From assembly GCF_002214465.1 (NCBI RefSeq), contig NZ_CP015101.1:627013-691012 (forward strand): a stretch of 64,000 bases of DNA, read 5' to 3'. Positions 2,926 to 60,195 of this stretch are shown in pieces (within the stretch, counting starts at the first letter, position 1; every line of letters begins with the position of its first letter). The notes below the pieces were generated by a model. That model was not told the DNA's origin. It did no database searches and was given only the letters and a program-made list of their open reading frames with translations. Both the position numbers and the translations under genes were made by a program. This DNA comes from Thermococcus barossii. Its GTDB lineage: Archaea; Methanobacteriota_B; Thermococci; Thermococcales; Thermococcaceae.

Positions 2926-2960
2926 ACTCTCACCGGAGGATATTGGGAAGAACAGGTTAA

Positions 2961-3112
2961 AAATGTGGGCTTGGCCATCCCCCACCCTCATCGAAGGCTC
3001 CGCCACCCTCAGGCGGTCCGGAGACCAAGCCCTGTCCGCCCGGCATCGTCGCACCCCATCACGGCCGCCCGAAAGCTCCGGGGCCCGGGCCACCGGGCGT
3101 CGTCGGATGCCG
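2961..3112 (-). ncRNA. putative two-hairpin box H/ACA guide RNA
   Basis: A GC-rich island in an AT-rich gap. Read on the minus strand it has two hairpins, each followed by an ACA. Hairpin 1 has lower-stem arms CGCCCGG (3099-3093) and CCGGGCG (3043-3037), then G and ACA at 3035-3033. Hairpin 2 has arms GGGCTTGG (3032-3025) and CCAAGCCC (2974-2967), then ACA at 2966-2964 and a T run. Inside hairpin 2 two UGA elements can form a K-turn, the L7Ae site of archaeal H/ACA RNAs. A TTAAAA box (3140-3135) lies about 25 bases before the 5' end. Such RNAs guide pseudouridylation; the targets were not derived. Confidence 0.8.
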
Positions 3113-31718: not shown

Positions 31719-31770
31719 GTTCATCACCTGATGAGCGAGGGACTTATGCCTATATAATTATTATGAAGAT

Positions 31771-31828
31771 GCCCTCGGCGATAGCTGGTGTCATCATACT
31801 TCAGACCCGAAACCGCTCGTCATCGGGC
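31771..31828 (-). ncRNA. box C/D sRNA with two 23S rRNA antisense elements
   Basis: Minus strand, 58 nt. Order: stem GCCC, C-like GATGA (31824-31820), element CGGTTTCGGGT, D' CTGA (31804-31801), AGT, C' ATGATGA (31797-31791), element CACCAGCTATCG, D-like CCGA (31778-31775), stem GGGC. The first element pairs with ACCCGAAACCG and the second with CGATAGCTGGT; both strings occur, as I remember, in domain II of 23S rRNA. TTATAAA at 31851-31857 lies about 26 bases before the 5' end. Spacing of three bases between D' and C' and 11-12 base guides fit archaeal 2'-O-methylation guides. The outer boxes deviate from RTGATGA and CTGA. Confidence 0.82.
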
Positions 31829-58709: not shown

Positions 58710-59438
58710 ATGGGAGTTGAAAAGGTTCCGAAGTACGACATCCCCACCAAGAAGGTTGACTACGTTTTTATCGAGCTCGACAAGATGAAGCCCCACGAGC
58801 AGCTCGTTCAGAAGGAGCTTGAGGCCTTCATCGAGAGCGTTACCGGTAGCGGAATCTTCTGGAAGCCCATGCTCCTCGCCAAGGTTCCCGGTGAGGACAC
58901 CTACCTCATCGTTGACGGTCACCACCGCTGGGCCGGCCTCCAGAAGCTCGGCGCCAAGCGCGCCCCGTCGGTCATCCTCGACTACTTCAGCGACGACGTC
59001 AAGGTCTACACCTGGTACCCGGCCTTCAAGGGAAACCTTGAGGAGGTTCTTGAGAGGCTCAAGGCCGAGGGGCTTGAGGTTGTGGAGGACCCCAACGCTG
59101 AGGAGAAGGCCGAGAGGGGAGAGATAGCCTTTGCCCTCGTCGGCGAGAAGAGCTTTGCCATCCCCGGCGGCCTTGATGAGCAGAAGAAGGTCAGCAAGGT
59201 TCTCGACGAGATGAGCGTTGAGGGTAAAATCGAGCTCATCTACTACGGCCTCAAGGAGGACGCCAGAGAGGACATGGCAAAGGGCGAGATTGACTACGTC
59301 TTCATCAGGAAGGCGCCGAGCAAGGAAGAGGTCATGGAGCTCGTCAAGCGCGGCGAGGTCTACTCCCCGAAGACCACTAGGCACGTCCTCCCGTTCAACC
59401 CGGACAAGATTGACGTCAAGCTTGAGGAGCTGTTCTGA
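58710..59438 (+). CDS. serK: ADP-dependent L-serine kinase SerK
   Basis: 242 residues, the same length as the Thermococcus kodakarensis SerK and closely alike in sequence. The ParB/sulfiredoxin-like core has IELDKMKPHEQLVQKELEAF, the nucleotide and catalytic segment LIVDGHHRWAGLQKLGA and a C-terminal TTRHVLPFNPDKI. It makes O-phosphoserine from serine and ADP, feeding cysteine synthesis. The frame opens at 58647, but GGGAGGT fits only the ATG at 58710. Promoter GCTTTTTATCCC at 58656. Confidence 0.93.
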   Translation: MGVEKVPKYDIPTKKVDYVFIELDKMKPHEQLVQKELEAFIESVTGSGIFWKPMLLAKVPGEDTYLIVDGHHRWAGLQKLGAKRAPSVILDYFSDDVKVYTWYPAFKGNLEEVLERLKAEGLEVVEDPNAEEKAERGEIAFALVGEKSFAIPGGLDEQKKVSKVLDEMSVEGKIELIYYGLKEDAREDMAKGEIDYVFIRKAPSKEEVMELVKRGEVYSPKTTRHVLPFNPDKIDVKLEELF

Positions 59439-59439
59439 A

Positions 59440-59451
59440 ACCTTTTAACCC
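59440..59451 (+). promoter_or_regulatory. TATA box of the second C/D sRNA / HAD mRNA
   Basis: ACCTTTTAACCC right after the serK stop. About 25 bases downstream lies 59470, the 5' end of the predicted sRNA stem. Confidence 0.65.
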
Positions 59452-59468: not shown

Positions 59469-59527
59469 TGCCGATGACGAGGGATCAACCGGCTGATGGG
59501 TGATGACCAGTCCAGGAGGCCGAGGCA
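59469..59527 (+). ncRNA. box C/D sRNA with a 16S rRNA 5'-end antisense element
   Basis: 59 nt, same plan as the sRNA at 31771: stem TGCC, C-like GATGA (59473-59477), CGAG, element GGATCAACCGG, D' CTGA (59493-59496), TGG, C' GTGATGA (59500-59506), element CCAGTCCAGGAGG, D-like CCGA (59520-59523), stem GGCA. The first element pairs with CCGGTTGATCC, part of the well-known archaeal 16S 5' end. No target is recognised for the second element. The RNA ends on the A of the HAD start codon and contains that gene's ribosome site AGGAGG, so RNA and mRNA leader coincide. Confidence 0.75.
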
Positions 59528-60195
59528 TGCTGAAGGGTCTAATCTTCGATGTTGACGAGACCTTGGTTTACTACGAGGGCTACGATCACAGGGAATGGTA
59601 CGAGAAGTGGATAATGCCAGCGCTCATGAAGCATGGCATCAAGCTGGATTACGAGACCTACAGAAAGACCGTAACCGGTGAACTTCCGAGGAGCTACATT
59701 GAGCGCTTCGGCATAGACCATGTCGAGTTCTGGAAGATCGTGGATAGGGTGAACCTCGAATATCGCAGGTGGATGGCGGATAGGGATAAAATAACCCCGT
59801 TTCCAGATGTTGAGGCCTTGGGGGAGCTGAAAAAGATGGATTTGAAGCTCGCCGCGGTGAGCAACGCCTCCCAGGAGTGCACGGAGTTCGTTCTTGAACT
59901 GTTCAACCTCAGGGAATACTTCGATGTTGTTTATGGGAAGGACTACTCGAACCTCGACGGTGTCAAGCCCAGCCCGTATCTTGTGAAGAAAGCGCTGAAT
60001 GCTCTTGGTATTAAGCCCGAGGAAGCGATGATGGTTGGCGACAGCAGTCACGACGTCCTCGCCGGCAAAAGGGCCGGCATGAAGGTCGTCAACATTACCC
60101 GTTTCGGAAAAATCGAGGGTGCCGACTACTATGTCAGGGACCTGTGGGAGCTTGAAAAGCTTGTAAAAGAGATTCTGGGGAGTTACTCCCCGTAA
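59527..60195 (+). CDS. HAD-family hydrolase
   Basis: 222 residues, HAD type with helical cap. Motif I is IFDVDETLVYY (nucleophile Asp), motif II SNAS, motif III the Lys in GVKPSP, motif IV VGDSSHDVLAGKRAGM. It removes phosphate from a small molecule such as a sugar phosphate or phosphoglycolate; the partner is unknown. AGGAGG lies eight bases before the ATG, within the C/D sRNA. Upstream in-frame GTG/ATG at 59500-59503 are within the sRNA boxes and not preferred. Its end overlaps the convergent diiron gene by 13 bases. Confidence 0.83.
   Translation: MLKGLIFDVDETLVYYEGYDHREWYEKWIMPALMKHGIKLDYETYRKTVTGELPRSYIERFGIDHVEFWKIVDRVNLEYRRWMADRDKITPFPDVEALGELKKMDLKLAAVSNASQECTEFVLELFNLREYFDVVYGKDYSNLDGVKPSPYLVKKALNALGIKPEEAMMVGDSSHDVLAGKRAGMKVVNITRFGKIEGADYYVRDLWELEKLVKEILGSYSP

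Follow-up and report, generated by a model that had tools for sequence, protein, structure and literature searches.

Several described systems come close to the arrangement reported here. According to the summary of Tripp et al. (2017) in PMC7994747, about 7% of the box C/D sRNA genes studied overlap the start of another gene, and in reporters such overlaps reduced its expression; in T. kodakarensis, 11 potential snoRNAs were located in 5'-UTRs (PMC4247193). The sRNA sR15/Tko-sR16 of the same species was recovered with 1.63 million small-RNA reads, and 698 reads were circular, the circles being dependent on RNA ligase TK1545 (PMC9014305). L7Ae acts as a repressor of its own and of other mRNAs via k-turns near Shine-Dalgarno (SD) sequences (PMC5539422). 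No archaeal U3 is known (PMC8339473).

We analysed a window of 64,000 nucleotides of the Thermococcus barossii genome (contig NZ_CP015101.1, positions 627,013 to 691,012), in which a box C/D sRNA of 57 bases occupies 59470-59526 on the forward strand and the start codon of a HAD gene stands at 59527. The features, in window coordinates, are as follows:

58710-59438, forward strand: serK, coding for ADP-dependent L-serine kinase, the gene constantly found upstream of the sRNA (NCBIfam NF053625, 2.5e-122)
59437-59448, forward strand: BRE/TATA element GAAACC-TTTTAA, which overlaps the serK 3' end, its position kept in the 23 abutting species
59470-59526, forward strand: box C/D sRNA, ortholog of T. 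kodakarensis sR15/Tko-sR16, which is also the HAD 5' leader
59470-59472, forward strand: 5' strand of the closing stem, GCC, pairing with 59524-59526
59474-59480, forward strand: C box, AUGACGA
59481-59492, forward strand: D' guide, 12 nt, GGGAUCAACCGG, pairing with 16S nt 4-15, N+5 target U8
59493-59496, forward strand: D' box, CUGA
59500-59506, forward strand: C' box, GUGAUGA
59507-59519, forward strand: D guide, 13 nt, CCAGUCCAGGAGG
59514-59519, forward strand: SD of HAD, AGGAGG, the last part of the D guide
59520-59523, forward strand: D box, CCGA (CUGA in several relatives)
59524-59526, forward strand: 3' strand of the closing stem, GGC, adjoining the AUG
59527-60195, forward strand: HAD-family hydrolase, 222 aa, ATG start (Pfam HAD_2, 1.3e-29; orthologs)

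Read in order, the sRNA is GCC GAU GACGA GGGAUCAACCGG CUGA UGG GUGAUGA CCAGUCCAGGAGG CCGA GGC, with the AUG of HAD next. As in an archaeal box C/D guide sRNA, the boxes C, D', C' and D follow one another, and C and D form a k-turn with a stem, a 3-nt bulge (GAU) and tandem G.A pairs. Box C and box D are one base each off consensus, and the same variants are found in the Rfam-recognised sR28 of the window (31773-31827, reverse strand). Several Rfam C/D models matched 59470-59526 end to end, among them sR14 (E=2.1e-7, 33.9 bits) and snoPyro_CD (5.7e-4). No family attained its curated score there (for sR14, 33.9 bits against a gathering score of 38), the gathering score being a library threshold and not a biological feature; the orthologous sRNAs of three genomes (G011, G015 and G056) exceed the sR14 threshold with 38.3-38.9 bits. 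The Rfam matches, the conservation of the leader and a guide of 12 pairs confirm that the match to a C/D sRNA is more than chance. An earlier note on this DNA had proposed such an sRNA with the HAD start codon at its edge, and both proposals held: boxes, stem and Rfam matches are all present, and the AUG directly follows GGC, U59469-A59527 extending the closing stem by one pair. Elsewhere in the window, the H/ACA RNA HgcE (Pab105) was matched at 2950-3070 (reverse strand, 75 bits).

The sRNA thus overlaps the leader of the ORF that follows it in the same orientation. Its AGGAGG lies 7 nt from the HAD AUG and is the sole good SD for this gene, as the earlier note had it. Upstream, a TTTTTAA or TTTTAA stretch stands about 30 nt before the C-box GATGA in 23/23 abutting species, right after the serK stop codon. 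The predicted transcription start falls at or beside G59470, where the k-turn stem begins, and the spacing from the TATA box to this base agrees with the published TATA-TSS distance (PMC4247193). A separate HAD promoter had been named beforehand as grounds for refutation; by reading, we found no TATA-like element between that TATA box and the HAD AUG, and therefore HAD would rely on transcripts started at the sRNA or on serK read-through also containing the sRNA. Folding the leader at 37-80 C gave no stable structure hiding the SD at high temperature. As an alternative HAD start we considered the in-frame GTG 59500/ATG 59503 in the C' box and rejected it, since homologs that lack this leader start at the same Met and the extension consists only of C'/D-guide sequence. 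These codons lie 8-9 codons before the true start (59500-59526), so that automated gene calls may set the start of HAD within the sRNA. The sR28 of the window precedes ftsY (start near 31727) with a TATA-like stretch in between, and ftsY, in contrast to HAD, apparently has its own promoter.

From this anatomy we consider it fairly probable that sRNA and HAD form a compact shared transcription unit in which sRNA maturation is set against HAD translation, and not a dedicated regulatory switch. The serK-linked guide sRNA would be transcribed from its own promoter, starting at the first base of the RNA; HAD, directly downstream and lacking a promoter of its own, would be expressed from read-through transcripts that serve as HAD mRNA, with the sRNA as leader. 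Upon maturation, 3' trimming would deprive the message of its SD and perhaps of its AUG, with L7Ae, Nop5 and fibrillarin covering the D guide; an unmatured transcript would be read as HAD message, so that HAD output would equal what escapes maturation. The unit would be kept by both constraints, guide and leader. Guide and message fates should exclude each other on one molecule, because the matured RNA is without the HAD frame and the protein-bound RNA has the SD in its guide region. Shared transcription and mutually exclusive fates are accordingly well supported by the anatomy, whereas read-through and competition are what we infer from it, and regulation by the overlap is unproven.

A counterpoint to the shared unit is that read-through from serK could also reach HAD. 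HAD might even be expressed chiefly in this way, the sRNA promoter yielding sRNA only and the overlap being an accident of tight packing: serK and HAD are co-directional and 88 nt apart, and a species without the sRNA (G022) has HAD directly after serK. However, the sRNA promoter lies between serK and HAD in 23/23 species, and a serK-HAD message would bear the same sRNA fold and SD, with the conflict persisting, so we regard this explanation as unlikely.

As a guide, the sRNA points to the 5' end of 16S rRNA, in agreement with the earlier note. The D' guide forms 12 consecutive pairs with 16S nt 4-15, 11 of them Watson-Crick, and the fifth base upstream of the D' box, the position that defines the target of a guide of about 12 nt, stands opposite U8, which corresponds to E. 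coli U13 by alignment of UUGAUC. Judged from this register, the sRNA probably directs 2'-O-methylation of 16S U8 (Um8). Changes in the D' guides of orthologs are almost all C-to-U, with a G-U pair kept, or fall at two D'-adjacent positions, with single exceptions in G036 and G042. Two genomes (G005 and G008) carry a divergent C/D sRNA before HAD that keeps the D' U8 register despite differing at these two positions (L009, L012 around 1431, reverse strand), and whose D guide pairs over 11 nt with 16S around G48; in both, an sR15-type copy was seen downstream of HAD. The D guide of T. barossii had no target at threshold in 16S or 23S; in a search of 44 tRNA genes the only hits fell in flanks, and 5S, SRP and RNase P RNA gave no convincing match. 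Apart from the sRNA itself, a single place in the genome, not a tRNA gene, has the exact complement of CAGTCCAGGA. Orphan guides make up 28% in Pyrobaculum (PMC7994747).

The stretch 16S nt 4-15 comprises the helix 1 strand and the loop forming the central pseudoknot; in eukaryotes, the region aimed at by this guide is protected by U3. Given that archaea have no known U3, the overlap is intriguing, but it may just be an ordinary methylation site. No second 16S site was found for the D guide, nor a second pairing to the other pseudoknot strand. That the sRNA acts as a U3-like folding guard on nt 4-15, its maturation in HAD-abutting species trading ribosome-assembly demand against HAD synthesis, strikes us as highly improbable.

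We then compared the locus across the genus, using one genome per species. Of 61 genomes, 56 yielded a HAD ortholog and the other five weak HAD paralogs only. Exact abutment, meaning a D box followed by GGC|ATG (always 3 nt), AGGAGG in the D guide and one TATA box about 25 nt upstream, was found in 23/56 species with the ortholog, T. onnurineus and T. cleftensis among them; in 6/56 the sRNA stands 10-44 nt before HAD, in 11/56 a DUF835 gene lies between the two, and in 16/56 the sRNA was not recognised within 900 nt upstream of HAD, although G053, counted among these 16, has the sRNA behind serK, its D box being odd. Whatever gene follows, the sRNA nearly always sits 36-70 nt after serK; at such a near-constant distance, serK and not HAD is its fixed partner. 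The abutting state changes at least 10 times on the HAD tree, and rearrangement around the sRNA has therefore been frequent. Two lineages without the sRNA keep HAD with another leader (G022 and G047); in the former, sister of an abutting species, HAD has its own SD, GGTGG. Abutment is thus not obligatory, and the coupling is missing in about half of the genus. The earlier note's suggestion that rRNA modification capacity is tied to expression of one enzyme is, with this and with the sRNA syntenic with serK, a conjecture. Between sRNA and DUF835, CACCTACAYARCCACYTACAAAAA is conserved upstream of the TATA box of the DUF835 gene on different branches (L002, L003, L022, L034, L036 and L147) and resembles a regulator site.

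Where the overlap exists it is closely kept, and its conservation in relatives, set beforehand as a check, was borne out. Across 16-17 species, identity was 94% in the leader, 80% in the promoter stretch and 49% at four-fold sites of HAD. Box order is intact in all 23 abutting species, the D box being degenerate in two (G042, CCGG; G044, CGGA), both of which retain the SD. GGAGG is present in 23/23 HAD-abutting sRNAs versus 3/7 sRNAs with the same guide and no HAD after them (Fisher p=0.0013, relatedness ignored). In four of the genomes with same-guide sRNAs lacking HAD downstream (G010, G014, G017 and G043), CAGUCCAGGA is kept; the last bases of the D guide vary where HAD is not downstream (AUA, AAA, AAU, AGA). 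Since GGAGG tracks HAD adjacency and the SD outlasts the D box, the 3' end of the D guide is held by translation and the rest by something else. Six abutting species (L011, L014, L015, L019, L023 and L027) have an additional GC-rich hairpin in the D'-C' interval, which would make the k-loop a stem-closed k-turn.

The position of the SD, directly adjoining the D box of the k-turn (59514-59519 and 59520-59523), also fits a dedicated switch in which L7Ae binding to the leader hides the SD and free L7Ae represses HAD, as with the l7ae mRNA, and the earlier note had offered L7Ae on the k-turn as a translation block. Against this, the k-turn has C:G at -1b:-1n and C.C at 3b:3n in 14/23 species (T. 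barossii and 13 others), and A:U in six, so that no switch property is conserved. C:G at -1b:-1n together with 3b = C leads to folding in metal ions alone, and l7ae leaders avoid both (PMC6298567). By these rules, which derive from duplex k-turns while the closing stem here has 3-4 pairs, the k-turn is predicted to fold without L7Ae, unlike those of known L7Ae switches, which makes such a switch less likely. The coupling is moreover missing in about half of the genus, HAD is without a link to L7Ae or rRNA modification, and a guide conserved as a guide already accounts for L7Ae binding; we therefore rate a dedicated switch as quite unlikely, slightly more so than expression chiefly from serK, and retain the shared transcription unit.

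Genome G011 is presumably that of T. kodakarensis KOD1. Its sRNA at 316134-316188 coincides with the published sR15/Tko-sR16 (316130-316191), which establishes it as a real and abundant RNA in T. kodakarensis. Circular sR15/Tko-sR16 extends 6 nt beyond its D box (junctions +/-5 nt) (PMC9014305). By analogy, the same 3' end in T. barossii would include GGCAUG, and the mature sRNA may carry off the HAD start codon. As a parallel in T. kodakarensis we considered the HAD gene TK0058, for which a circular C/D RNA is listed, and discarded it, since that RNA lies on the other strand, at the TK0058 3' end.

Processing also bears on the earlier claim that excision costs HAD its ribosome site. The geometry makes the two fates exclusive, which sustains the claim in part, but cutting at GGC|AUG might yield a translatable leaderless message, and there it falls short. 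Endonucleolytic excision at this point would give an AUG-first HAD mRNA, sRNA and message being made together and not in competition; the stem ends at the very base preceding the AUG in 23 species, and leaderless mRNAs are known from T. kodakarensis (about 14%, PMC4247193) and T. onnurineus (117 genes, PMC5316973). However, an SD with 7-nt spacing, superfluous for a leaderless message, is kept in 23/23 species, an end about 6 nt past the D box, as in the T. kodakarensis circle, would remove the AUG, and exonucleolytic 3' trimming would destroy the message, so that we give this alternative little credence.

On the shared transcription unit, one stretch of RNA is under two constraints, that of a guide and that of a leader binding the ribosome, in an arrangement that is evolutionarily replicated, and sister species supply natural counter-examples in which HAD is detached, the sRNA is lost or the D box has decayed. 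Competition between maturation and translation is directly testable in genetically tractable Thermococcus.

Compared with known systems, the sRNA resembles T. kodakarensis sR15/Tko-sR16 (PMC9014305) in its position after serK, its D' guide core and its box order, whereas the latter has the D guide AUCGGUCUUG, is followed by a DUF835 gene with its own promoter, and has HAD elsewhere. With the L7Ae autoregulatory leader (PMC5539422, PMC6298567) it shares a k-turn next to an SD in an mRNA leader, but its k-turn is part of a complete two-guide sRNA and is predicted to fold in metal ions. Like eukaryotic U3 snoRNA, it is a box C/D RNA that base-pairs with the SSU rRNA 5' end over one strand of the central pseudoknot, and unlike U3 it is by register a normal D' methylation guide. 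Closest are the 5'-overlapping C/D sRNA genes (PMC7994747, PMC4247193), which likewise share sequence with the start of a downstream gene and have a start codon just beyond the D box; in contrast to those, the D guide here doubles as the HAD SD, with a junction that is base-exact in 23 species. Overlaps of sRNAs with gene starts are a described archaeal class, of which the HAD leader is a new and unusually well-conserved member.
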